Shown: in pieces, positions 16,253 to 31,252 of the stretch
How the letters are laid out: each line of letters opens with the position of its first letter
How positions within the stretch are numbered: position 1 is the first letter of the stretch
NCBI GenBank assembly: GCA_023264975.1
Contig: JAHFUS010000026.1
Location: forward strand, 17,915 to 50,309
Origin: Actinomycetes bacterium
GTDB lineage: Bacteria; Actinomycetota; Acidimicrobiia; Acidimicrobiales; GCA-2861595
Length of the DNA: 32,395 nucleotides
Direction: 5' to 3'
Program-made: the position numbers and the translations under genes
Notes under the pieces: model-generated
The model's database searches: none
Told to the model about the DNA's origin: nothing
Seen by the model: only the letters and a program-made list of their open reading frames with translations

Positions 16253-16330
16253 CGGGCTGTAGCGCAGCTTGGTTAGCGCGCTTGACTGGGGGTCAAGAGG
16301 TCGGGAGTTCAAATCTCCCCAGCCCGACCA
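16253..16330 (+). tRNA. tRNA-Pro (anticodon GGG), CCA encoded
   Basis: A full cloverleaf can be drawn. The acceptor arm CGGGCTG (16253-16259) pairs with CAGCCCG (16320-16326). The D stem is GCGC/GCGC, the anticodon stem CTTGA/TCAAG surrounds the loop CTGGGGG with anticodon GGG at 16288-16290, and the T stem is GGGAG/CTCCC with loop TTCAAAT. The discriminator A is followed by CCA (16328-16330). C1-G72 is the expected proline identity pair. The 3' end is the presumed attachment site of the integrative element that follows. Confidence 0.96.
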
Positions 16331-16340
16331 CAAAGGTGCA

Positions 16341-16531
16341 GGTCAGGGCGTTGCAGGTCGAGAACGATTCTCAGCTTGCAGCGCCTGCACCACATCTGCA
16401 CCACAAGCGGACCGGGTTTTGTTCCCCGGGTGGCGTCGCGCACGGCCGCTGCGCCTCGCAGATCGTCCGGGGTAGCGGTGGGCGCAGTCCCGTTCGGAAC
16501 ATGGCGGGGTCCGTCCCCATGATGGCGGCGA
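16341..16531 (-). pseudogene. Degenerate duplicate of the integrase 3' end
   Basis: About 190 bases align with the 3' end of the intact integrase gene (17351-17539), including the shared start GGTCAGGGCGTTGC with the integrase stop codon and the later stretch AACATGGCGGGGTC. On the minus strand the remnants read LAAIMGTDPAMF and, in another frame, DDLRGAAAVRDA. The intact gene has AAAIMGHDPAMF and GDLRGAAAVLDA. Frames are broken, so it is not functional. It lies between the tRNA and the toxin-antitoxin genes. Confidence 0.8.
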
Positions 16532-17333: not shown

Positions 17334-17352
17334 GCCGCCGGACCCGCTCAGG

Positions 17353-18498
17353 TCAGGGCGTTGCGGGTTGCGAGCGATTCTCGGCTCGCAGCGTCTGGAC
17401 AGCGTCCGCACCGCGTGGGGTTGCCATCTCCGTGGTGCGAGCGGCGTCCAGCACCGCCGCCGCCCCTCGCAGGTCGCCCGGGTAGAGGTGGGCGTACACC
17501 CTGAGGAACATGGCGGGGTCGTGGCCCATGATGGCGGCGGCCGTCGTCACCGGGATGCCCTTCTGCGCCATGAGGGAGGCGCAGGTGTGGCGGAGGATGT
17601 AAGGGGTGAACCACACGGGCAGCCCAGCCGCAGCGGCCGCCGCATCGAGGCGCCGACGGAAGTTGCGCAGCCCGATCGGGCGACCCTGCGGGGTCACGAA
17701 GATCAGCGCCTCGGGGTCGGCCGGCCGGCGCTCAAGTAAGCGGTCGACCTCATCGGCCACGAAGCGGGGGAGCGGCACCACCCGGGCCTGGTGCGTCTTG
17801 CCGTCCGTGGCGACGAGCCGGCCCCGGACCTCGACCAGGCCTTCCTCGACCACCAGCTGGCCGAAGTCGTCGCGGTGGCGGCGCCGGAGGGCGAACGCTT
17901 CGTTCGGGCGGAGGCCGCAGTAGGCCAGGAGGAGCACGAGCTCCCGGTACTCGCCGGCCTCAGCGGCGAGCGCCTCCACTTGGTGAACCGTCAGCGCTTC
18001 CTTGGCCCGGGTGGCGCCCCGGCGCGGGAGCTTCACACCCGCCAGCGGGTTAGTCCGGATGACCCGGGACTCAACGGCACTCGACAGCATCATGCCGAGC
18101 AAGGTCCGGGCCGTGCGCGTTCCCGACTGGCCCAGCCCGTTCTCCCGCAGGATCGCCAGCCACTCCTCCAGGTCGATGCGGCGCAGAGATGCCATGGTGC
18201 GGGTGCCGAGGTGCGCCAGGACGTGAAGGCGCAGGATGCCCTCGTACTGCACGACGGTGTTGGCCGCCCGGTCGCTGTTCTCGATGGTCGGCCACCACCG
18301 GTCGTGCCACTGGGCCAGGGTGATCCTGGCGGCCTCCGGCTCGAACCACTCCCCTCGACGCTTGTCGGTCTCGGTGCTTGCCAGGTACGCCACGGCGTCG
18401 GCCTTGCGGTCGAACGTCGCCGTGCGCTGGGACCCCAAAGGATCGCGGTAGCGGGCCTCCCAACGGCCGGTGCGGGGCGACCTTCGGACTGAGCCCAT
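17353..18498 (-). CDS. int: Tyrosine-family site-specific integrase
   Basis: A 381-residue phage-type integrase that would recombine the element with the tRNA-Pro 3' end. An N-terminal AP2-like arm-binding region (GRWEARYRDPLG) is followed by a SAM-like core-binding domain (about 60-150) and the catalytic domain. Catalytic residues visible are Arg197 (CGLRPNE), Lys234, Arg303 in the box PYILRHT (first His of HxxR replaced by Tyr300, as in many actinobacterial integrases), His326 and Tyr335. Its 3' end faces the tRNA, the usual orientation. The ATG overlaps the stop of the XRE regulator gene by one base, forming an xre-int operon. Confidence 0.95.
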   Translation of the reverse strand: MGSVRRSPRTGRWEARYRDPLGSQRTATFDRKADAVAYLASTETDKRRGEWFEPEAARITLAQWHDRWWPTIENSDRAANTVVQYEGILRLHVLAHLGTRTMASLRRIDLEEWLAILRENGLGQSGTRTARTLLGMMLSSAVESRVIRTNPLAGVKLPRRGATRAKEALTVHQVEALAAEAGEYRELVLLLAYCGLRPNEAFALRRRHRDDFGQLVVEEGLVEVRGRLVATDGKTHQARVVPLPRFVADEVDRLLERRPADPEALIFVTPQGRPIGLRNFRRRLDAAAAAAGLPVWFTPYILRHTCASLMAQKGIPVTTAAAIMGHDPAMFLRVYAHLYPGDLRGAAAVLDAARTTEMATPRGADAVQTLRAENRSQPATP

Positions 18499-19340
18499 CA
18501 GCTCTTCCTCCTCGTAGTCTTCTTCCTGGTTGTAGCCGGCGGGCGGGGCTGGCGACTGGGCGCCCTTGGCACTTCGCCCTCGGCCTCAGCCGCCGTCCCT
18601 GTCGCAGAGTCTGCCGCCGACCCGTGGGGATCGACCACGGCCTGTGCCTCTGGGTCCCACCGCCGAGAGCCGGGCGGCATCCCGAGGTCGTCGACATCGA
18701 CGTCGAGCTGGCTGGCCATGGCCAGCTTGGAGCGGCCTTCGAGATCCTCGAGCTGGTTGGCCAGGGACCGCAGCGAGGTCTGCCAGTGGCCGAGCCCGGT
18801 GAAGGCGTGGCGCACCAGGGCGGCCACCCGCTGGTCGGCCAGCGCGGCGATGCGGTGCTGGGCGTCGGTGAGGCTGCCGGGCACCGTCGCGGCCAGGAAG
18901 GCGTCGAGGCGCCGGCACAGGTCGTACTGCTGGTTCCTGTCGCCGAAGACCAGATCGACGAGCATGGCCACGTTCTCGCCCATGCGGGGGGCATCGGCGA
19001 CAGCCAGTCGGGTGGCAACACCAACGCCGGCGAGCGGCGGCGGGGGCATGAAGAACCACGTGACCGGGCGCTCGTAGCACCGGGCGAAGGCCACGATCTC
19101 GTCGGCGGTGAAGTTGCGCACGAAGCCCCCGGCCACCGACCGCTCGGCCTGGGAGACGCTCGCCTTGGACCACCGCACCCCCAGATAGGGCTCCAGGGCC
19201 TCGGCCGCTTGGTCCTGGGTCCAGCCCTTGATCTCCCGGGCCAGGGCCAGGTTGTAGGCCACCACCTGGTTGGGGGTGAGGCCGACGAAGTGCTTCCGGT
19301 CGCCTCCGGAGTCCTCCGGCTTGGGTTTTTTCCGTACCAC
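18498..19340 (-). CDS. XRE-type helix-turn-helix regulator
   Basis: A 280-residue protein with an HTH near residues 24-75 (LTPNQVVAYNLALAREIKGWTQ, shown in part; SKASVSQAERS is the recognition-helix region). A helical middle section follows, then a basic tail rich in Pro, Arg, Lys and Thr. Its position between the integrase and the divergent excisionase-like gene fits a repressor or switch for the element. GTG 19338-19340 is chosen because GAGGGG lies 7 bases upstream on the minus strand. Four 10-base-spaced GTGTCC boxes begin 4 bases from this start. Confidence 0.85.
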   Translation of the reverse strand: MVRKKPKPEDSGGDRKHFVGLTPNQVVAYNLALAREIKGWTQDQAAEALEPYLGVRWSKASVSQAERSVAGGFVRNFTADEIVAFARCYERPVTWFFMPPPPLAGVGVATRLAVADAPRMGENVAMLVDLVFGDRNQQYDLCRRLDAFLAATVPGSLTDAQHRIAALADQRVAALVRHAFTGLGHWQTSLRSLANQLEDLEGRSKLAMASQLDVDVDDLGMPPGSRRWDPEAQAVVDPHGSAADSATGTAAEAEGEVPRAPSRQPRPPATTRKKTTRRKS

Positions 19341-19343
19341 AGC

Positions 19344-19379
19344 GTGTCCCCTCGTGTCCGCCAGTGTCCCCTGGTGTCC
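19344..19379. promoter_or_regulatory. Array of four GTGTCC boxes at exact 10-base spacing
   Basis: GTGTCC starts at 19344, 19354, 19364 and 19374, with a weaker GTACCA at 19384. All boxes face the same side of the helix. The array occupies the space between the xre start and the divergent excisionase promoter. It fits cooperative binding by an excisionase-like or XRE-like protein. Its inner part also forms the ribosome site of the xre gene, so binding there could block that gene directly. Confidence 0.65.
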
Positions 19380-19407
19380 ATGCGTACCAGCACTACAAAT
19401 CTACCAG

Positions 19408-19436
19408 TTGACGACCGAACCACACCAGCGTAACTT
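19408..19436 (+). promoter_or_regulatory. Sigma-70-type promoter for the excisionase-like gene
   Basis: TTGACG (19408-19413) and TAACTT (19431-19436) are separated by exactly 17 bases. The ATG at 19444 follows the -10 box by 7 bases, so a leaderless transcript is expected. This is the clearest complete promoter in the window. Confidence 0.7.
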
Positions 19437-19443
19437 CGCCGCC

Positions 19444-19797
19444 ATGGCCCGCCGGGCTGCGCCTGCCAGGAACACGCCACCGCCGACTCCAACGGAGCCG
19501 GCGCCGCTACGGCCTGCGCCATCACGGGCGCAGGCCCAGGGCCGCGCGCGGTACTTCACCATCCCCCAGGCGGCCGAGGCCTACCCGGGTGTGCTGACCG
19601 AGCGCCTCATCCGCCGCCTGGTGGCCGAGCGGCGCATCGCCTACAGCTACGCCGGGCGGCGCGTGGTCCTGGCCGAGACCGACATCGAGGCCTACCTCGA
19701 CGCCAACCGCCACGAGCCGCTCCAGGGCCCGTGTGCGCCGTTCGGGGCGAGACGACTCTCCCCGGCACCGAGGTCGGCGCGCTCGCGCCCGGCGTGA
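19444..19797 (+). CDS. xis: Excisionase-like HTH_17 protein (candidate recombination directionality factor)
   Basis: A 117-residue protein with a Pro/Ala-rich, basic N-terminal 40 residues and a MerR-like winged helix (about 44-95: YFTIPQAAEAYPG, ERLIRRLVAERRI, DIEAYLDANR). This domain is common in Xis proteins and helix-turn-helix partners of integrases. ATG 19444 is preferred because it lies 7 bases after a good promoter; an open frame upstream has no support. Divergence from xre-int over a shared control region suits a lysogeny-like switch. It overlaps the next gene in another frame. Confidence 0.75.
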   Translation: MARRAAPARNTPPPTPTEPAPLRPAPSRAQAQGRARYFTIPQAAEAYPGVLTERLIRRLVAERRIAYSYAGRRVVLAETDIEAYLDANRHEPLQGPCAPFGARRLSPAPRSARSRPA

Positions 19798-20456
19798 CGG
19801 ACGGCGCCGGGCGCATCGTGGTCGGGCCGGCCAGCGCCGAGTTGCGCCGGTCACTTCGCCCCATCGAGTGGGTGGTGCTGGAGGACGTGGCCCTCGACGC
19901 CCGCCCTGACGGCGACGGAGCCCTGGTGGCACCCACCAGCGCACGGCGGGTGGCCGAGCGCCTGGGCCTCACGCCCGGTGCGACGGCCGGCGCCCTGGCC
20001 CGGCTCCGCTCGGCCGGCCTCGTAACCCACGCCCGCCAGGCCGGCCCCGCCGGTCGCTTCGGGCTGTCGGCCTACGTGCTCGGACCCGTGCCCGGCGTTG
20101 AGGTGCTTGACGCCGACGATCGCACCTCGCCAGATGTCGCCCCGCCGGACGTGGCTCCACCACCCACGGCTCCACCATGTGTGGTCAAGCCGCACATGGT
20201 GGCAGCGGAGAAGGCGGAGCCGCCGGCGTCATCCGGCGCGAAGCTGACGCGGGCCCGGCGCTTCGCCCAGGCCTCGGCGACGAGCGCACCGGCCCCTGCA
20301 GTGCGGGACCCGGCGTCGGCCAAGGCAGGCGTGGGCCGCACTTCAGCGCCGGACGATCGTCGTCAGCCGACGGGCCGGCCTCCGGCCGCCCAGCTCAGCA
20401 TGCTCGACGCCTTCGCCGACCCTGCGTCCGACACGGCCCCGGACCAACAGCCATGA
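19731..20456 (+). CDS. Winged-helix-like protein of the mobile element, unknown role
   Basis: From GTG 19731 the protein has 241 residues. The middle (about 42-110) resembles a winged helix: RSLRPIEWVVLEDVALDA, SARRVAERLGLTPGATAGALARL, then GLVTHARQ and FGLSAYVL. The C-terminal half is low-complexity (a DVAPPDVAPPPTAPP-like repeat, then basic Ala-rich sequence) and is likely disordered. It sits between the excisionase-like gene and the relaxase, where relaxosome accessory or control proteins often lie; that role is inference. Its start overlaps the preceding gene by 67 bases. The stop makes an ATGA overlap with a Pro/Thr-rich frame. Confidence 0.7.
   Translation: MCAVRGETTLPGTEVGALAPGVTDGAGRIVVGPASAELRRSLRPIEWVVLEDVALDARPDGDGALVAPTSARRVAERLGLTPGATAGALARLRSAGLVTHARQAGPAGRFGLSAYVLGPVPGVEVLDADDRTSPDVAPPDVAPPPTAPPCVVKPHMVAAEKAEPPASSGAKLTRARRFAQASATSAPAPAVRDPASAKAGVGRTSAPDDRRQPTGRPPAAQLSMLDAFADPASDTAPDQQP
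20172..20202. repeat. Perfect 10-bp inverted repeat inside the winged-helix gene
   Basis: CCACCATGTG (20172-20181) and CACATGGTGG (20193-20202) flank an 11-base loop. Just upstream the 9-mer GGCTCCACC occurs twice (20153 and 20168). The cluster is about 420 bases before the relaxase frame, so it is a candidate for part of an oriT or operator, without direct proof. Confidence 0.5.
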
Positions 20457-20674
20457 CCAACTCCGTCCTTCACCCACATCCTCGCCACCACGCCCTCCCA
20501 ATCCCCAACCCCACAACTCCCACCTCCACCCACCTACCACCAACCCCTACTCCCAACTCCACCACTACAACTCCCCCCTCCATCAACCCCTCTCCCACCA
20601 CAACCCCCACCCGTACAGACACTTGCCACCTCTCCGAGGGGGCGGCGCAACCGGCGGCGGCAACGTCATCCTGA
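20453..20674 (+). CDS. Possible Pro/Thr-rich 73-residue protein
   Basis: An ATG at 20453 overlaps the winged-helix gene stop (ATGA) and opens a 73-codon frame ending at 20674. The product would be almost only Pro, Thr, Ser, Asn and His in its middle, with no domain. The DNA underneath is a G-free C-rich tract, so the composition may reflect a nucleic-acid function, with coding incidental. If translated, ribosomes would cover a putative Rho-loading tract, and its stop overlaps a CTG (20671) in the relaxase frame. Confidence 0.3.
   Translation: MTNSVLHPHPRHHALPIPNPTTPTSTHLPPTPTPNSTTTTPPSINPSPTTTPTRTDTCHLSEGAAQPAAATSS
20493..20612 (+). promoter_or_regulatory. 120-base G-free, C-rich tract; candidate Rho-utilisation or relaxase-related site
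   Basis: Counting base by base, 20493-20612 has 76 C, 30 A, 14 T and no G. Three isolated G bases precede it. Such C-rich, G-poor, unstructured RNA is what Rho binds. The opposite strand is G-rich with many GGG runs and could form G-quadruplexes. It lies directly upstream of the relaxase gene. It could be conditional termination control or part of the transfer origin. Confidence 0.55.
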
Positions 20675-23600
20675 CTCTCACAGCGCTGCGCGACCCCGAG
20701 TACCTCATCTCGTCAGTGGCCCTCGGCCTCGACGAGTACTACGCCGGCGTGGGCGAGGCCCCCGGCGTGTGGTCCGGGCGCTTCGCCGCCGAGCTGGGCC
20801 TCGTCGGCGTGGTCGATGCCGACCAGCTCCGGGCCCTGGTCCAGGGCTACGACCCCGTCACCGGCACCAACCTGTTGGCCGGGCGCCCCGAGCGCAGCGT
20901 CAACGCCTTCGACCTCACCTTCTCCGCCCCCAAGGGCCCGTCGGTCCTGTGGAGCCTGGGCAGCCCCGAGACCGCCTCGGTGGTGTCGCGCTGCCACACC
21001 GACGCGGTGGAGACGGCACTGGCCTTCATGGAGGACAAGGCGGCGGTGGCCCGCCAGCAGACCAAGGGCGTGCGCCGGCGTGTCGCCACGTCGGGCTTCG
21101 CGGTGGCCACCTTCGCCCACCGCACCTCCCGGGAGGGCGACCCCCAGCTCCACACGCATTGCCTGGTGGCAAACGTGGTGCGCCGCCCCGACGGCTCTCA
21201 CGTGGCCTTCGACGCCAACCCGCTGCACGACTGGGCCAAGGCGGCCGGGTCGATCTACCAGGCCGAGCTGCAGCGCCTGCTCACCGTGCACCTGGGCGTC
21301 GAGTGGGGACCGGAGCGCAACGGCTGTCGGGAGATTGTGGGCTTCAGCGCCGCCCAACTGCGCGCCTTCTCCAAGCGGACGGTGGCCATCGAAGCCGAGC
21401 TGGAGGCGTCGGGCGCCACCTACGAGAGCGCCGCCCAGCGCATGCGGGCCGACGACGCCGCCTCCATCGCCACCCGCCCTCGCAAGGACCACTCCCTCAC
21501 CCCCACCCTGTTGGCTGAGCGCTGGGAGGCCGAGGGCAAGGCGGTGGGGCTGGAGAGCGCCGTCGCCGTCGAGGCGGCCGTGGTGGGACGGCGGGAACGC
21601 GCTCCCGAGCTCAGCGCCGAGCACATCGTGGCCGGGCTGCTCGACCCGGAGACCGGCCTGTGCGCCAACGACGCCCGCTTCACCGAGGCCAAGGTGGTGG
21701 AGCGCATCTGCGCCGCCTCGGCCGGGCGCCTCACCACCTCCGAGATCCTGGTCCTGGCCGAGCAGCTCCTGGCCTCCGAGCACGTGGTGCGCCTGGTGCC
21801 CGACGAAGGGTCGCGCCGCCGACCTCCCGAGTGGTCCACCGTGGCCCACCGCCAGCTGGAGAACGGCGTGCTCGACCACCTGGACCGCCTGGTGGCCACG
21901 CCGGAGGCCGGCCTCGACGCTTCGGTGGTCGACGCCGCCGTCGCCGCCGAGGGACACCTGGGCGACGACCAGGCCGCCGCCGTGCGGGCGCTGTGCGGCA
22001 ACGGTCCCGCCCTTCGGTCGCTCATCGCCCCGGCCGGGTTCGGCAAGACCACCGCCATCCACGCCGCTGCCGCCGCCTGCACGGCCGCCGGCCGTCCCGT
22101 GCTCGGGGTCGCCACCACCAACCAGGCGGTGGGCGGCCTGCGCTCGGTCGGTCTGGAGGCGGTCACCGTCGCCCGCCTGCGTCTCGACCTGGCCAAGCGT
22201 CCCCTGGCCCCGGGCACCGTGGTCATCCTCGACGAGGTCTCACAGGTGGCCACCAGGGACGCAGCTGTCGTGCTGGAGGCGGTGGTCGCCACCCCCCGGG
22301 CCCAGTTGTGGTGCCTGGGCGATCCCCGGCAGTCCCAGGCGGTGGGCGCCGGCGGCCTGGCCGCTGAGATCTCCCGCCTGGGGACCGACGGCGCCATTGT
22401 GGCCCCCGCCCTGGTGGTCAACCGCCGCCAGCGTGACGCGGTGGACCGGGAAGCCCTGGCCGAGCTGCGGGCGGGCAACGCCCCCGCCAGCCAGACCAAG
22501 CGCAGCGACCACGGCTGGGAGCACGAGGAGGCGACGCCGCTGGCTACCCGGGAAGCCATGGCCGAGGCGGTGGTGGCCGACATCGCCGCCCATGGTCCCG
22601 AGGCGGTGGTGTCGCTGGCCGTCTCCCACGCCGACTGCTCGGATCTGGCCGACCGCATCCGGGCCCGCCTGATCGAGTCCGGGGCCATCGGCGGCGACGC
22701 TATGGCCGGGCCGGGCTGGGGCAGCGGTGCGGAGCGCTCCTATGCGGACGGCGACCGGGTGCTGCTGCACACCAAGCCCCGCATCGAGGGCCTCCACAAC
22801 GGGTCGGTGGGCACGGTGGTGGCCGTTGGGAGCAAGGGCCTGCAGGTGGACTTCGACGACGTGGGTGCGGTCATCCTGCGAGCCGACTTCGTGCAAGGAC
22901 GGCGCCACGACGGCAACCCCAATCTGTCCCACGCCTGGGCCAGGACCATCGACGGTGCCCAGGGTGGGACGTGGGCGGCGGTGCACCTGCTCGGCACTGC
23001 CTCACTCGACGCCTTGTCCGGCTACACCGGCCAGAGCCGGTCGCAGACCCCCACCCACACGTGGAACACCCGCCCGCTGGCGGTGGCCGAGGTGGGCGGG
23101 GTGGTAGCCGACGACCGCAGCGCCGCCGAGGTGGTGCTGGGGGCCCTGAGCCGGGAGCCGGTGACCACCTTCGCCGCCGCCGACGACCCGTGGGTCCTGG
23201 ACCGCCGCCTCGGCGCCGAGCGCGACCAGCACCTGGCCGTGCTTGCCGCCGCCCCGCCCGATCTGCGCACCTCGCTCGGCGTGGCCCGGGCTGCGGCCGA
23301 GCGGTCGGGGCGCCTGGCCGAGCGGGCCGCAGGGGACCTGGAGCGGGCCGAGGAGAACCTGGCCGGCTTCGGGCCGCTGTCGGGCCTACGCCGCTCCGGG
23401 CGCCAGCAACGCAGCGGCGCTGAGCACGCCCTGGCCCGAGCGGCTGAGCGGCTGGAGTCGGTCCGGGTCGAGCGGCGGGCGAGCGAGCACAAGCTGGCTG
23501 AGCTGGAGGCGGGAGAGGCGAAGCGCCTGCGCTTCGAGGCCGACAACGGGTGGCGAGTCGAGCGGGTGCGGGCCATCGACGCCGAGCTCGATCGCCACTG

Positions 23601-24507
23601 GGCCACCGCCACCCTGGCCGCCGTGCGCCAGGACGACCCGTTGGCCTTCGGCATCGACCGCCTGCGTTGTGCCCGGACCGTGGCCGCCGCCGACCTGGCC
23701 GCCTACCGGGCCGGCCTGCCCCCCGACCGCAGCGCGGCTGTCACCGAGGCCACGCGCACGCTGGCGGCCGCCGAGCAGGACCTGCGCAACAGCCGGACCG
23801 AGCTGGTGCAGCGCGGGCAACGCCTCGAGCTGGCCACCGAGCGCCACTGGGGGCGACGGGACAAGCAGGCCGTGGCATTGGCGACGAGGGCTGTGGAGCG
23901 GGCCGAGGTGGCGGTGACGGAGGCCGAGGCCGTCGAGCGGGACGCCCGACGCCGTCTTGACCCTGAGGCGACGAACCAGTTGAGGCGGGAGACGGTGCTG
24001 CGCGCCACCGAGCCGCGGCGGGCGGACCTAACCCAGGCGTTGGCCGAGCTCGACGCCGCCCTCGACGACACCCGTGCACAACGGGTGACCGACCTGTCCG
24101 CAGAGGCGATTGTCCCGGCGCACCTGGCGGCCGTGGTGGGCGACGTGCCCTCCGATCCCGGAGCACGACAGGTGTGGTGCGGGCTGGCCTGTCGCATCGA
24201 GTCCTACCGGGACCGCCATCCCGACGCCCTCGGCCATGAGGCCCATGGGGGAGTGGTGGCCGCCATCGGGCTCCGCCCGGCTGAGCGGTGGATGGACGAT
24301 CCCGAGTGGGACGACCTGGCCGGCCAGCTTCACCACGGCGCCGAGCTGGTGGGTATCGCCGCCCAGGTCGAAGCCACCGGCGCCAGCTACGCCGACGCCC
24401 GCTCGTGGATCGAGGTCCTCGACCACGCCGGCGCACTCCTGGAGGCGCAGGGTCGCACGGCTGACCATGGGCTCGACCAGGACTCGGGCCTGGGCCTGGG
24501 CTGGTAG
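20623..24507 (+). CDS. MobF (TrwC-like) relaxase-helicase
   Basis: Nicks the transfer origin, binds the 5' DNA end and unwinds the strand for conjugation. The 1294-residue frame from TTG 20623 has a TrwC relaxase domain: DEYYAGVGEAPGVW with the tyrosines, VNAFDLTFSAPKGPS, and the metal-site histidines His166, His177 and His179 in PQLHTHCLVAN. A RecD-like helicase follows, with Walker A APAGFGKT (469-476) and Walker B VVILDE (Asp537). The last third (about 880-1190) is a long Arg/Glu/Ala helical region, probably coiled coil. The start is uncertain; TLTAL suggests the protein really begins near 20671 (a CTG). No secretion ATPase or T4SS gene is visible. Confidence 0.93.
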   Translation: MPPLRGGGATGGGNVILTLTALRDPEYLISSVALGLDEYYAGVGEAPGVWSGRFAAELGLVGVVDADQLRALVQGYDPVTGTNLLAGRPERSVNAFDLTFSAPKGPSVLWSLGSPETASVVSRCHTDAVETALAFMEDKAAVARQQTKGVRRRVATSGFAVATFAHRTSREGDPQLHTHCLVANVVRRPDGSHVAFDANPLHDWAKAAGSIYQAELQRLLTVHLGVEWGPERNGCREIVGFSAAQLRAFSKRTVAIEAELEASGATYESAAQRMRADDAASIATRPRKDHSLTPTLLAERWEAEGKAVGLESAVAVEAAVVGRRERAPELSAEHIVAGLLDPETGLCANDARFTEAKVVERICAASAGRLTTSEILVLAEQLLASEHVVRLVPDEGSRRRPPEWSTVAHRQLENGVLDHLDRLVATPEAGLDASVVDAAVAAEGHLGDDQAAAVRALCGNGPALRSLIAPAGFGKTTAIHAAAAACTAAGRPVLGVATTNQAVGGLRSVGLEAVTVARLRLDLAKRPLAPGTVVILDEVSQVATRDAAVVLEAVVATPRAQLWCLGDPRQSQAVGAGGLAAEISRLGTDGAIVAPALVVNRRQRDAVDREALAELRAGNAPASQTKRSDHGWEHEEATPLATREAMAEAVVADIAAHGPEAVVSLAVSHADCSDLADRIRARLIESGAIGGDAMAGPGWGSGAERSYADGDRVLLHTKPRIEGLHNGSVGTVVAVGSKGLQVDFDDVGAVILRADFVQGRRHDGNPNLSHAWARTIDGAQGGTWAAVHLLGTASLDALSGYTGQSRSQTPTHTWNTRPLAVAEVGGVVADDRSAAEVVLGALSREPVTTFAAADDPWVLDRRLGAERDQHLAVLAAAPPDLRTSLGVARAAAERSGRLAERAAGDLERAEENLAGFGPLSGLRRSGRQQRSGAEHALARAAERLESVRVERRASEHKLAELEAGEAKRLRFEADNGWRVERVRAIDAELDRHWATATLAAVRQDDPLAFGIDRLRCARTVAAADLAAYRAGLPPDRSAAVTEATRTLAAAEQDLRNSRTELVQRGQRLELATERHWGRRDKQAVALATRAVERAEVAVTEAEAVERDARRRLDPEATNQLRRETVLRATEPRRADLTQALAELDAALDDTRAQRVTDLSAEAIVPAHLAAVVGDVPSDPGARQVWCGLACRIESYRDRHPDALGHEAHGGVVAAIGLRPAERWMDDPEWDDLAGQLHHGAELVGIAAQVEATGASYADARSWIEVLDHAGALLEAQGRTADHGLDQDSGLGLGW

Positions 24508-25903: not shown

Positions 25904-28900
25904 TCAGCAACCGCACTCGGGGGACGGAAGGAAGTTGGTGAGGACGTCGCCGGCACCGAACGCGCTACCGATGCGACCGGCCACATCGGCGCTCGCGAGG
26001 TCTCCCGCCATCTTGGCAGCCTTACCGGCTCCAGCCCAGAGAACACCAACACCGAGTCCCATGCCGCCGATCGCTAGGGACTGTGTAACCCTCTTCGACT
26101 TGCACGGCTTGTTGTCGAGTAGTTCCGCGCCCGTAGAGAGGCCGAGGGCTCCAACACCCAGAGCGAGAGACGTGCCGCCGCTCGCCGGCACAGCAGCGAC
26201 CGCAAGCACCATCGCGCCGCCCTGCATGATCCCGACCTTGTGATCGTTCACGTAGCTGACAGCTCTCCCGCCGGTCGTGTCCCAGCCGGCATCGACTGCG
26301 CCAGCGACATCCTCGACGATGCAGGTGGGTCCCCAGCACAGCCCGCTCGGGTCCACCCGGTTGAGCGGGTTCCCCCCGACATACCCATACGCCTCCCGCG
26401 TCGTCGCCTCGATCGGGTCCCTCGTCAGGAACTGCCCCGTCGCCGGGTCGTAGTACCTCGCCCGCAGATACTGGAACCCGGTTTCGGCGTCGGTCCATTC
26501 GCCGGCGAACCCGAAGTCATCGGCGACGGTCGCGCCGCCGCCTCCGAGGGTCACCGTGCTGCCGCCGGCGTTGGCGGTGGTACCGGCGGGCTTGACGGGG
26601 ATGCCGTAGGGGTCGTAGTGGCGGGCGGTCTTGAGCTCGCCGTACTCGTTCGTCACGGCACGTACCGAGCCGAGTTGGTCGCCGTGGTAGAAGTGCCCGA
26701 CCGGCCGGGCGTGCTCGAGCACGAGCCCGATGGCGGTGAGGTCGGCGACGTCGTTGTACACCGCTTCCAGTGTGACAGTCTGGCCGTGGGCGAGCGGTCG
26801 GTCGGCGATCATCGTGACCGGCTGCGCCGTGCCGACGCGGTTGGCCACGGTGCGGTGCTGGGCGCCGGCGACGGTGAACGTCGGGTCGGATGGGCCGAGC
26901 GGGTCGGCGGCGGCGGCGATGATGACGGCGAGATTGCCGACCTCTTCGGTGCCGACCAGCGCTGCGGTGTTGACGGTCGAGCCGGCGAGGGTGGCGTTGG
27001 TGGTGACCGTGGAGATCGGTGCGATCGGGTCGACGTTGCGGTACACGGCGAGGCTCAAGGTCTTGTCGTAGTCGCCGGGCGTGTACACGACGGTCGCGGG
27101 CGGGTCCTTCGCGTCGAGGGGGCTGGCGGTGAGAGTGCGGGACCACACCACCGTCGTGGTCAGGCCGCTGGTGACGCGGGTGACCTCGCTGAAGCCGTCC
27201 GGAGGTACCTGGATGCCACCGACGGTCGGGAACGTCGTAGTGAGGATGGCGACGTCACGCTTGCGATGTGTCGTCGGCATCGTCACCGTCAATGCCGGCG
27301 CCGTCTCCCCCGTGATGGTCAAACCTCCCAGGTAGGAGATGTCGGGGAGTGGATCGACGGCTGCGAGCACCTGGCCGGTGGGGCCGTACAGGAAGTGCCG
27401 TGTCCCGGCGGTGAGCAGCAGCGGCAGGGCGCTGTTGGTTGTCCAGGTGAACGAGGTGGTGACGGCGGGGTCCGAGCCGGGCGGGTCGATGGTCTTGGCG
27501 GTGCGCAGCCCCTCGGCGTCGTAGGTGTAGGTGGCGGTCTGGCCGTTGATGTTGGTCAGCCGGTTCCAGGCGTCGTAGCCGTACGTGGTCGCCGTGGCGC
27601 TCGCCGGGGTGCGTTGTGTCCGGTTGCCCCGCTGGTCGTAGCTGAACCGGATGGGTGCCGGTCGTAGCACCAAGTCGACGGCAGCGAGATTGGCGCTGGT
27701 CGAGTACGTCATGGTCGTCGATCCGGTCGGGCCGAGGCCGACGAGCTTCTGGTCGGCCAGCGCGAGGGCGGTGCTGACGGCGGGGACGGCCTGGGCGTGG
27801 ACCTCGACGCCCGCACCGGCGGTCCAGGTGCCGGTCTTGTTGGCTGCGGTTCCCACTTCGGCGGCCGCGATTACCCGGGTCGACAGTCGGGCGTCGGCCG
27901 TGCGGGACCCGAGGGTCACGGTCGTATCGGCGACGGTGCCGGCGGTGCCGTGGTCCACGATCAGCGGTGCGGTGGGGTCGACCCCCCGGTACAGGGCGGC
28001 ACCGACTGATTTCGGGTAGAGGCCCCCGCCGCTGAAGCGAACCTTTACGACCTGGTCCTGGGTGATCGGCTTGTAGAACACGGTGAGCTTGGTGGTGCCG
28101 GCGGTCTTGGTGGCCAGCTGCACCCACGGCGTGTCCATGGTGGCCGTCTCGGCCGCCGGGGTGGCGACGGCGACGATGGCGATGTCCCCGCTGTCGGCGA
28201 CCATGCCGTAGCTGGTCGTCACCTCGTTGTGGAGCTGGTCGGTGACCGCGAGCGACGCGACCCGTTGGACCGAGGTGCTCTTCTTGGTGAGCTGGTGGGC
28301 GGCGTCGAACTCCTGTGTGCTGCCATCGAGCATGGACACGAGGTTGTCGGCGTCGTCGTATCCGAAGGCCGACTCGTCCACCTGGGTGAGCTGGTCGAGG
28401 GCGTCGTAGCCGAAGTCCTCGGGGCCTTGGAGCCCGGCGACACCGGCGACGGTTTCCTTGGTGACCAGCTGGTTGTCGTTGCGGACGTAGTCGAAGTTCG
28501 CAATCGCAGCGTTGGCGACGCCGTTCAGCCCGCGGTGGTTGATGCTGGTGGTGGCGGCGGCCTCGTCGAAGGTCTGGGTGATAGCGGTGTCGTTCGGGTT
28601 GACCTGGCCGCCTGGGTTTCCGTCGGCGTCGTAGCGGAACGTGAACTCCCGGAACTGCCAGTCCTGGATGCGGACCAGCTGGTTGGCGGCGTTGAACGTG
28701 CGGGTCACGACCCCGGCGGCGACGCCGGGGTAGTCGATCGAGGTGAGGTTGCCGGCCAGGTCGTAGCCGTAGTCGATCCGGTCGTCCTTGTTGTATCGCC
28801 ATTCGCTGGTCATGCGGCCGAGCGAGTCGTAGGTCCAGTAGGTGGTTCCGGAGGCGTCGGTGCGGTACGTGCGGCGGCCGAGTTGGTCGTAGGCGGAGGA

Positions 28901-31252
28901 GCTGCTCACCCCGGAGGTCGACACCAGCTGCCCGGCGGCGTCGTAGGTCATCGTGGTGTTGGTGGCGTCGGGAGCGGTGACGGTCTTGATCCGCCCGACC
29001 AGGTCGCGGGTGTAGGTGGTGGTCCGGTTCAGGGGGTCGGTGTGGCTGTTGCGCCGGCCGAGCGTGTCGTAGCCGTACGAGGTCATTGCCCCGCCGGGGT
29101 CGGTGACTGCGGCGACGCGCCCACCGGGCAGGTAGCCGGTGGCGGTGGTGGAACCGTCGGGGCGGGTGATCTCGATAAGACGGTCGGCGTCGTCGTAGCG
29201 GTTGCGGGTGATCTTGCTCTGAGCGTCGGTGGTCTCAACGACGTTGCCGTTGGCGTCGTACTCGGCCGACGTGGTCGCACCGTCGGGGCGGATCGTGGAG
29301 ATGACCTGCCCCAGCTTGTCGTAGACGACGCCGGTCGTGAAGCTGCCGGGCGTGGCGCCGGGCAGGTTGCCGCGCGGTGAGGTGGTCGTGAGCGGCCAGC
29401 CGACGGTATTGTACGTCGAGGTGGTCTTCGCGCCGGTGGGGACGTCTGCGGTCGCCGGTGCGGTCGAGGAGACCTGGTTCCCCGCGGCGTCGTAAGTGAA
29501 CCTCCACACGTTGCCGTTCGGGTCGGTGACCTGGGTGACGTCTTCGGGCTTGGCTGGGTCGTGGGTGAACGTGGTCTTCGCGGTGGCGGTGACGGCGCCG
29601 GCGCCGTTGAGCAGCGCCCGGCTGATGGTCAGCGGTCGGCCCTGGTCGGTGTAGGTGGTGGTGGTTGCCACACCGGTCGGGTCGGTCACCTTGGTCGGCA
29701 GGTCGAGGGTGTTGTACTCGACAGTCGTGGTTCGACCAAGCGGGTCGGCGACGCTGATGGGGTCACCTTCGCCGTTGTAGTCGGTGGTGGTGGCCTTGCC
29801 GAGCGCGTCGGTCACCTTCGTGATGCCGAGGTGGTTGTAGTCCCGGGCGTAGGAGGTCGTTGCTGGCGTGGCGGAGCCGTAGCCGACGGTTACGGACTTC
29901 AACAGTCCGTACACGTCGTACCGGTGCAGCGTCTTTACCCCGGCCGGGTCGGTCACGATCGTGGCGTCGGCGACGGTGGTGTAGTCGAACAGGTGCACGT
30001 CGCCGGCCTCGTTGGTCTGGCGGATCACCCGTCCCTGCGTGTCGTAGACGTTCACGACGGCCTTGTTGGTCCCGGCGGCGTTGTGGCGCGGGTCGGTGAC
30101 CGACACGATCCGGTTGCTGGCGTCGTAGGCGACGGATGTGACGCCGCCGTTCACGTCGGTGACCGTCGACAGCAGCCCCGCGGGCGTATAGCCGTAGGTG
30201 ACGGTGCGAGCCGGGGTCGACGGATCGGTGATCGTCGTGATGCGGTCGGCGGTCCAGGTGACCTGCAGGCTCCGCCCGGCGCTGTCGGTGATGGCCGCCA
30301 GCTTCCCGGAGGTGTCGTAGGTGAGGCTGGTCTCGTCACCGTCGATGTCCTCGACGTGCGAGAGCTTGCCGGTCGCGTCGAAGCTGAACCGTTCGAACTT
30401 GCCCCGCTCGTACAGCCAACCCCCGCCCGGCACGGCGCTCAGCGTGCCGTACACACGGGGAGGGGCGGTGTATCCGCCGGCACCGTCGGTGTCGAAGAAG
30501 ACCGACGTCCCGGACTCCTGGCGAATCTCCACTCGACCCGTGGCGGTGTCTTCGATCGCTCGCAGGTTCCAGTTGTGCGACCAGCCCGGCCCGAACGCTG
30601 CGCCGGTCTCACCCGAGCGCGCCGACAGATACGTGCGGGTCCACGACAGCGCCGGGGAACGCCCGGCGATCGTGGCGATGTCGGCGTAGGAGTCGTAGAA
30701 GTCGCCGCTGCGGGTCGACACCGGGTCGGCGCAGGCGGTCCAGCACGACTCGCCATGCCGCAGGCCCGGGTTCGGCCCGGCAAGCTCGAAGGCGGCGATC
30801 GCTTCGCAGTCGAGCGAGTTCAGGCCCAACACCTCGGCCGACACCTGCTTTTGCAGGTCGGTACCGAAGTAGTTCCGCAGGTAACCGGCAAAGTTGTACA
30901 CACCGGCGGTCGCAACGGAGAAGGTCGCGGTGAAGGACCAGGTTCGGTAGTGAGGCGATTCCTCGGAGACGTAGTACCAGTCGAAGAGCCCGAGGTCGTC
31001 GGCGAAGTAGCCAGGGCCGGTGAGCTCGACCACCGGGTTCGCCTGAAGGCGGTGGCTGATGAACCACCAGTCCTCTCGCGCCGATCCGAAGATCCGAACT
31101 CGGACCTGCCGGCCGGCCGGCACGTACACGCTGCCGCCGGATCGTTCAGTCGACGTCGAGATCGCTGTCGTCTCCTCGATGGTGCAGGCCGACGCGCTGG
31201 CCGAGGCAGATGACGCACCGTGAATCACTGGCAGGAGTGCTGCGGCCAACAT
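25904..31252 (-). CDS. Large secreted RHS/YD-repeat protein, polymorphic-toxin-like, 5' end truncated
   Basis: The open frame encodes 1782 residues from the first in-frame Met. Order: a hydrophobic leader (MLAAALLPVIHGASSASA), an N-terminal beta-rich region, a DUF6531-like segment (ADPVSTRSGDFYDSYADIAT), many YD repeats, two embedded beta-rich domains (about residues 1000-1200 and 1300-1515), and the RHS core (RARYYDPATGQFLTRD, DPSGLCWGPT near 1635). A Gly/Ala-rich hydrophobic tip of about 140 residues ends SPECGC. The frame stays open upstream with a basic stretch (SPRARRGIHAVAVAVP) that looks like the lost start of the signal peptide, cut by the IS110 remnant. Export and toxin activity are inferred from family. 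Confidence 0.88.
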   Translation of the reverse strand: MLAAALLPVIHGASSASASASACTIEETTAISTSTERSGGSVYVPAGRQVRVRIFGSAREDWWFISHRLQANPVVELTGPGYFADDLGLFDWYYVSEESPHYRTWSFTATFSVATAGVYNFAGYLRNYFGTDLQKQVSAEVLGLNSLDCEAIAAFELAGPNPGLRHGESCWTACADPVSTRSGDFYDSYADIATIAGRSPALSWTRTYLSARSGETGAAFGPGWSHNWNLRAIEDTATGRVEIRQESGTSVFFDTDGAGGYTAPPRVYGTLSAVPGGGWLYERGKFERFSFDATGKLSHVEDIDGDETSLTYDTSGKLAAITDSAGRSLQVTWTADRITTITDPSTPARTVTYGYTPAGLLSTVTDVNGGVTSVAYDASNRIVSVTDPRHNAAGTNKAVVNVYDTQGRVIRQTNEAGDVHLFDYTTVADATIVTDPAGVKTLHRYDVYGLLKSVTVGYGSATPATTSYARDYNHLGITKVTDALGKATTTDYNGEGDPISVADPLGRTTTVEYNTLDLPTKVTDPTGVATTTTYTDQGRPLTISRALLNGAGAVTATAKTTFTHDPAKPEDVTQVTDPNGNVWRFTYDAAGNQVSSTAPATADVPTGAKTTSTYNTVGWPLTTTSPRGNLPGATPGSFTTGVVYDKLGQVISTIRPDGATTSAEYDANGNVVETTDAQSKITRNRYDDADRLIEITRPDGSTTATGYLPGGRVAAVTDPGGAMTSYGYDTLGRRNSHTDPLNRTTTYTRDLVGRIKTVTAPDATNTTMTYDAAGQLVSTSGVSSSSAYDQLGRRTYRTDASGTTYWTYDSLGRMTSEWRYNKDDRIDYGYDLAGNLTSIDYPGVAAGVVTRTFNAANQLVRIQDWQFREFTFRYDADGNPGGQVNPNDTAITQTFDEAAATTSINHRGLNGVANAAIANFDYVRNDNQLVTKETVAGVAGLQGPEDFGYDALDQLTQVDESAFGYDDADNLVSMLDGSTQEFDAAHQLTKKSTSVQRVASLAVTDQLHNEVTTSYGMVADSGDIAIVAVATPAAETATMDTPWVQLATKTAGTTKLTVFYKPITQDQVVKVRFSGGGLYPKSVGAALYRGVDPTAPLIVDHGTAGTVADTTVTLGSRTADARLSTRVIAAAEVGTAANKTGTWTAGAGVEVHAQAVPAVSTALALADQKLVGLGPTGSTTMTYSTSANLAAVDLVLRPAPIRFSYDQRGNRTQRTPASATATTYGYDAWNRLTNINGQTATYTYDAEGLRTAKTIDPPGSDPAVTTSFTWTTNSALPLLLTAGTRHFLYGPTGQVLAAVDPLPDISYLGGLTITGETAPALTVTMPTTHRKRDVAILTTTFPTVGGIQVPPDGFSEVTRVTSGLTTTVVWSRTLTASPLDAKDPPATVVYTPGDYDKTLSLAVYRNVDPIAPISTVTTNATLAGSTVNTAALVGTEEVGNLAVIIAAAADPLGPSDPTFTVAGAQHRTVANRVGTAQPVTMIADRPLAHGQTVTLEAVYNDVADLTAIGLVLEHARPVGHFYHGDQLGSVRAVTNEYGELKTARHYDPYGIPVKPAGTTANAGGSTVTLGGGGATVADDFGFAGEWTDAETGFQYLRARYYDPATGQFLTRDPIEATTREAYGYVGGNPLNRVDPSGLCWGPTCIVEDVAGAVDAGWDTTGGRAVSYVNDHKVGIMQGGAMVLAVAAVPASGGTSLALGVGALGLSTGAELLDNKPCKSKRVTQSLAIGGMGLGVGVLWAGAGKAAKMAGDLASADVAGRIGSAFGAGDVLTNFLPSPECGC
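26322..26515. repeat. 194-bp direct repeat, copy in the full-length RHS gene
   Basis: Partner of 25013-25206, same orientation, no gaps in the alignment. Recombination between the copies would swap the tip of the full-length RHS protein for the orphan tail and delete the candidate immunity gene. Confidence 0.85.

Follow-up and report, generated by a model that had tools for sequence, protein, structure and literature searches.

Why should DNA of about 70% GC carry 120 consecutive nucleotides without a single G shortly before a conjugation gene? The window analysed here, a 32,395-nucleotide stretch of a contig from an Actinomycetes bacterium of the order Acidimicrobiales, contains such a tract at 20493–20612, which on the plus strand counts 76 C, 30 A, 14 T and 0 G, exactly as an earlier sequence-only reading of this DNA had reported. 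It sits within a wider G-poor stretch (20466–20612) whose only Gs are at 20484 and 20492. The G content of the window is 36.6%, its second-longest G-free run is 22 nt, and in 200 first-order Markov simulations of the window the longest G-free run had a mean of 19.8 nt and a maximum of 36. The same reading had placed the tract directly before the relaxase gene, which holds in outline, except that 55 nt intervene between tract and relaxase start, and these contain a nic motif and a hairpin that had gone unnoticed in that reading. On the minus strand, the predicted transferred strand (T-strand), the tract becomes a 120-nt C-free, G-rich zone (63% G) that occupies nt 5–124 after the predicted nic; the first ~124 nt of that strand hold a single C, at position 4. 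Searching the tract against plasmids at the nucleotide level gave only chance matches to C-rich sequence, and promoter, terminator and Rfam scans around it found nothing.

The downstream gene (20668–24507, plus strand) encodes a MobF relaxase-helicase of the TrwC/TraI type, in which both a TrwC relaxase domain (PF08751, E = 8.6e-77) and an SF1 helicase domain (AAA_30, 1.4e-32) are present, with a match above cut-off to the MobF model NF041492 (E = 1.1e-68) and a match to TrwC in PDB (7e-31). Its three-His motif, HRTSREGDPQLHTH, is formed by H150, H161 and H163, which are invariant in the subfamily alignment, as are the N-terminal tyrosines Y11 and Y23. The protein thus belongs to the ordinary MobF type, with predicted catalysis. 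We place its start at ~20668–20671 because relatives have a GTG or ATG start there (GTGCTGACC in relatives, ATCCTGACT in the window); the window copy has ATC at 20668–20670, and the longest listed relaxase ORF starts at a TTG at 20623, within the nic motif. Translation of this relaxase may begin at a rare start codon, or its expression may be low. Across the tract and up to the relaxase start runs an overlapping Pro/Thr-rich ORF of 73 codons (20453–20674, plus strand), which has an ATGA overlap with the gene upstream and ends in a TGA at the relaxase start. Short upstream ORFs with a TGA overlapping the relaxase start (A/GTGCTGA) also occur in L189, L010 and L014; this overlap arises partly because a Met-Leu-Thr/Ser start is conserved, and translational coupling of the short ORF to the relaxase is possible.

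The surroundings look like a tRNA-integrated mobile element, from the combination of the MobF gene with a tyrosine integrase (17353–18498, minus strand; PF00589, E = 5.5e-19), an excisionase-like HTH_17 protein (19270–19797, plus strand; PF12728, E = 9.8e-5, under the gathering score) and a tRNA-Pro(ggg) gene (16253–16330, plus strand; ARAGORN), the latter likely being the integration target. A winged-helix DNA-binding protein with a weak MarR_2/HTH_24 match (19731–20456, plus strand) is a conserved upstream neighbour of the nic region. An exact 16-bp direct repeat, CAGGTCAGGGCGTTGC, occurs just past the tRNA gene (16339–16354) and just beyond the integrase end (17349–17364), and is a possible attachment-site remnant. 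The ends of this candidate integrative and mobilizable element were not found, and there were no mating-pair or type IV secretion genes among the ORFs scanned. Adjoining the relaxase is a gene for a 1782-aa Rhs-repeat protein (RHS_repeat, DUF6531; 25904–31252, minus strand), perhaps cargo of the element.

Going by record titles, most of the closest relatives belong to Acidimicrobiia, and a scan of viral contigs with the relaxase alignment found no relatives. The 3.78 Mb draft genome of the host (G000) itself gives 30 tblastn matches to the window relaxase, spread over no fewer than a dozen distinct loci, so that its burden of MobF elements is unusual; in one of these copies (L045, G000:C105) the MobF frame is broken and the match resumes in another frame past an internal stop, so that this copy is apparently decaying. 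Two Acidimicrobiia-like MobF loci, L193 and L203, lie on MAG contigs labelled Acidobacteriota and Bifidobacterium breve, probably reflecting binning or naming errors, or recent transfer.

What lies between the tract and the relaxase gene resembles the transfer origin of plasmid R388, whose nic site is GCGCACCGAAAGGTGCGTATTGTCT/ATAGCC (the slash marks the cut) and requires a purine after the cut (PMC4176350). Read on the minus strand, 20617–20643 gives hairpin-GGTGGC-AAGTGTCT/G, as against hairpin-GGTGCG-TATTGTCT/A in R388, and the window reads hairpin-GAGGTGGC-AAGTGTCT/GTAC. The inverted repeat expected 5' of nic on the predicted cleaved strand is present at 20625–20643 (plus strand GCCACCTC TCC GAGGGGGC, with one mismatch), and it is followed by a putative single-stranded recognition stretch, AAGTGTCT, that leads from hairpin to nic (20617–20624, minus strand), ends in TGTCT and precedes a purine, as TATTGTCT/A does in R388. 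Since layout, TGTCT end and purine all agree with R388, we assign nic to the minus strand, at the junction of the nucleotides complementary to 20617 and 20616 (...AAGTGTCT/GTACGGG...); six of the eight nucleotides 5' of the cut are identical in the alignment to R388 nic (PMC4176350). By this similarity, 20617–20643 appears to be a previously unrecognised MobF nic site of the R388 kind on the minus strand.

Comparison with relatives agrees with this assignment. When the upstream regions of the three closest relaxases, all from the same genome, are aligned, a variable G-poor stretch gives way to a near-invariant block, CAGACACTTGCCACCTCTTCGAGGAGGCGGCGG, and an exact AGACACTTGCCACC occurs at just three sites in the 3.8 Mb host genome, each preceding a member of the window relaxase subfamily. 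On the plus strand, AGACACTT is kept in L002, L003, L012, L189 and others. Within the subfamily the hairpin stem takes eight distinct sequences, in which two pairs vary on both sides and 100% of cells remain paired. More distant relatives have (A/C)AGACA(C/G)(T/G)TGC or something similar, and the inverted repeat that comes after it varies in sequence (GCCACC/GGTGGC, GCACC/GGTGC, GCATCC/GGATGC, GCACG/CGTGC). In the window, in the paralogues L002 and L003 and in distant relatives alike, the tract borders directly on the nic-like motif with its hairpin.

Of 169 nonredundant MobF upstream regions of the order, 71 bear the motif with its hairpin on the coding strand and six on the opposite strand, two of which (L011 and L180) look real; this strict scan, which demands both parts, recovers the motif in fewer than half of MobF loci. 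With the hairpin not required, motif density is 3.8 per kb near relaxase starts vs 0.33 per kb elsewhere; of the motif sites near starts, 30 of 67 adjoin a perfect stem of 5 bp or more, compared with nine of 276 elsewhere (p = 6e-17). Many actinobacterial MobF elements have motif and hairpin at this place, a short way before the relaxase gene. One candidate orphan nic site in the host genome (G000:C2:16306, one mismatch) was dropped, as by eye it had no clear hairpin or bias. A separate group of MobF loci (L026, L027, L039, L040, L061, L067, L130, L153, L166, L176) carries AGACGAGTGCA or AGACGGGTGCA at −85 to −126. No perfect hairpin lies close to these sequences, which may represent a kind of nic that works without an inverted repeat.

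The compositional bias beside nic extends well beyond the window. In 59 relatives, which are not phylogenetically independent, the T-strand is depleted in C and enriched in G over ~140–200 nt after nic and returns to background further out (p ~1e-9). Related elements might have lacked any G-poor bias here; taking nic as zero on the motif strand, C minus G per nucleotide averages 0.17–0.21 in the first three 60-nt bins to the left of nic, with 50–53 of 58 loci positive (p ~1e-9, again over related loci), and falls to about 0 beyond 240 nt from nic and just past the hairpin. At 20-nt resolution, T-strand C frequency is ~0.20–0.24 from nic to nt 140 and rises to ~0.34 by nt 220–240. The bias persists with the three loci of the host genome's own subfamily left out, and a phylum-wide scan under the same frozen rule, in loci mostly outside the order, gave the same sign in 12 of 13 (p = 0.0005). 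Among plasmids, those of M. avium, M. abscessus and Pimelobacter have it on the left flank as well, and it is opposite in C. phocae (L287), which with L022, L073, L098, L123 and L128 makes up the exceptions with little bias or opposite sign. Skew showed no significant relation to background GC.

What these T-strand leaders have in common is scarce C and hence little self-pairing. A strand without C can form no G–C pairs with itself, and the same is true of its G-free complement; the window tract (L001) has a predicted MFE of 0 on both strands. Predicted single-stranded folding of the T-strand is weaker than in control windows from the same locus in 47 of 55 cases (p = 2e-7). A different property of the strand, its capacity to form G-quadruplexes that could bind the coupling protein or block re-annealing, is strong in the window, where 14 GGG runs fall within 150 nt and the G4Hunter score is 1.63. 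There are also precedents, in that TrwB of R388 and TraB of pSVH1 are cited for binding to G4 DNA (PMC8152469), and a quadruplex is predicted in the pIGRK oriT (PMC8152469). However, a canonical G4 motif occurs in the first 150 nt of the T-strand in only eight of 59 loci, L001 included, GGG runs are rarer than in composition-matched shuffles (mean z −0.86), and relatives such as L054, L060 and the T-rich, inverted L192 combine scarce C with few GGG runs or none at all. Quadruplex potential is thus not conserved, the quadruplex-prone element of the sequence-only reading does not carry over from the window to its relatives, and we consider quadruplex formation an unlikely explanation of the zone.

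Alternatively, the bias might be a mutational footprint, left by deamination that strips C from a T-strand repeatedly exposed as single-stranded DNA beside nic. In the leaders C is indeed down (.226 vs.347 in background) and T slightly up (.194 vs.149), but most of the lost C is offset by a gain in G (.432 vs.343), which C-to-T change would not produce, AT is only ~2 points above background, and the window tract is 63% G on the T-strand. Simple deamination is therefore a poor fit, and we regard a mutational origin as improbable.

Six relatives whose nic motif faces the other way relative to the relaxase gene (L180, L192, L193, L197, L200, L206) separate the effects of nic from those of the gene. 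Their T-strand G/C counts over the first 120 nt are 69/9, 48/10, 75/8, 57/26, 63/16 and 67/21, so that the C-poor, G-rich strand is here the relaxase-coding strand, and G and C are close to even over 120 nt on the hairpin side. On the relaxase tree the inverted state needs two changes, and the flip rests on one or two events. Even so, these loci strongly indicate that the bias belongs to nic and the T-strand, and not to the relaxase gene or its mRNA. Of the two functions that the sequence-only reading had offered for the tract, that of a strand-asymmetric part of oriT is supported by these comparisons: the tract directly adjoins nic motif and hairpin, and the bias tracks nic orientation in the inverted loci as well.

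The other function, a Rho-utilisation (rut) site in which C-rich, G-free RNA before the relaxase would bind Rho and stop the transcript unless translated, with the Pro/Thr frame as a translational guard, fares less well. RNA from the plus-strand tract would be an ideal substrate, being C-rich, G-free and unstructured (R-strand MFE 0), but an open frame spans the whole tract, the bias tracks nic and ends ~200–240 nt from it, and C-rich, G-poor RNA is not conserved on the coding strand, the mRNA leader in the inverted loci being G-rich and C-poor. That the bias flips with nic argues against either a rut site or a leader peptide as the general cause, and we find the Rho explanation very improbable in that general role, while a Rho effect may exist in the window element alone. 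An R-loop, in which antisense G-rich RNA displaces the T-strand, was also considered; in forward loci it needs an antisense promoter, and none was seen. Least credible of all is coding constraint from a Pro/Thr-rich leader peptide (20453–20674), which we reject as the cause of the tract in spite of its frame's overlaps with the genes on either side and the similar frames in L002, L003, L010 and L014, since, given the peptide and local codon usage, all 39 codons would be G-free with P = 10^-7.9, the peptide, on whose conservation the earlier reading had partly turned, is not conserved in L010 or L014 and has no family match, and the inverted loci have the same bias with no such frame.

We therefore return to the transfer origin, and think it probable that the tract forms the T-strand flank of the oriT in an integrated MobF element and serves as a zone for strand opening and for loading of the relaxase helicase. 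Our confidence differs between the parts of this proposal: that the anatomy is that of an oriT with a T-strand-specific composition zone we consider very likely, and the helicase-loading step is offered tentatively, at somewhat short of even chances, as base composition by itself does not establish it. In such a scheme the relaxase would recognise the hairpin at 20625–20643 and cut the minus strand at the nic assigned above (20617/20616), releasing a transferred strand that would start with GTAC and continue for 120 nt without C. The first 140–200 nt after nic would be kept unstructured despite the ~70% GC of the DNA, a single-stranded bubble 3' of nic could open and persist over the tract, and a second relaxase molecule could load there as a 5'–3' helicase.

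Several features of known systems bear on these steps. In the F family a second TraI molecule loads in helicase mode 3' of nic (PMC5422253), and the trans-esterase domain can bind only if the DNA just 3' of nic is open as a single-stranded bubble (PMC12117103). Two TraI molecules flank nic in F/R1, and the tract occupies the corresponding 3' side. An AT-rich strand-opening region is typical of oriT, as a usual rather than a defining feature (PMC4853378). The relatives studied here show no such region, AT in the first 150 nt of the T-strand being only 2.3 points over background. In enterobacterial oriTs, AT-richness is thought to aid strand opening; the most economical proposal is that GC-rich elements would hold this zone open through strand composition instead.

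Four known systems are the nearest comparisons. The R388 oriT, with a homologous relaxase (TrwC, MOBF), matches the window in its hairpin, its ~8 nt ending in TGTCT and its purine, but it is intergenic and away from trwC, and its strand 3' of nic is unbiased, at 13 G/16 C in the first 60 nt and 16 G/15 C in the next. That of F/R1 (TraI, MOBF) is mildly C-poor in its first 60 nt (19 G/9 C) and shares the helicase-mode loading and bubble 3' of nic (PMC5422253, PMC12117103), but its bias is short and weak and a C-free tract is absent. The oriT of pIGRK (MobK) has a G-rich stretch with a predicted quadruplex (PMC8152469), but its relaxase is unrelated, resembling tyrosine recombinases, and the G-rich site is short, unlike an extended C-depleted zone that follows the orientation of nic. 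MOBF plasmids of Mycolicibacterium and Mycobacterium are like the window in their MobF relaxase, similar motif and C-rich left flank (M. avium, M. abscessus); for these we found no described reference oriT, as a 2021 survey by oriTDB similarity search found no known oriT in Mycolicibacterium plasmids (PMC8190616). Our search of the open-access literature found no report of skew or strand asymmetry at oriT, and a literature search found no paper on an oriT from Acidimicrobiia. Thus, whereas the relaxase and nic types are already known, we could not find the strand-composition zone described.

If these observations generalize, which we judge about as probable as its opposite, the oriT of MobF elements in GC-rich Actinomycetota would have a new component, a C-depleted T-strand zone of 140–200 nt that starts at nic, replaces the AT-rich melting region in strand opening and helicase loading, and by its sign predicts, on sequence alone, the position of nic, the nicked strand and the direction of transfer. 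Actinobacterial MobF transfer origins appear essentially uncharacterised, and the combination of motif, hairpin and flanking bias offers a route to predicting where nic lies and which way transfer runs across a large group of elements, mycobacterial plasmids included. It also yields a concrete hypothesis, open to testing, on strand opening at oriT where the DNA is not rich in AT, for which the naturally inverted sites are a ready control that separates DNA-level from RNA-level explanations.
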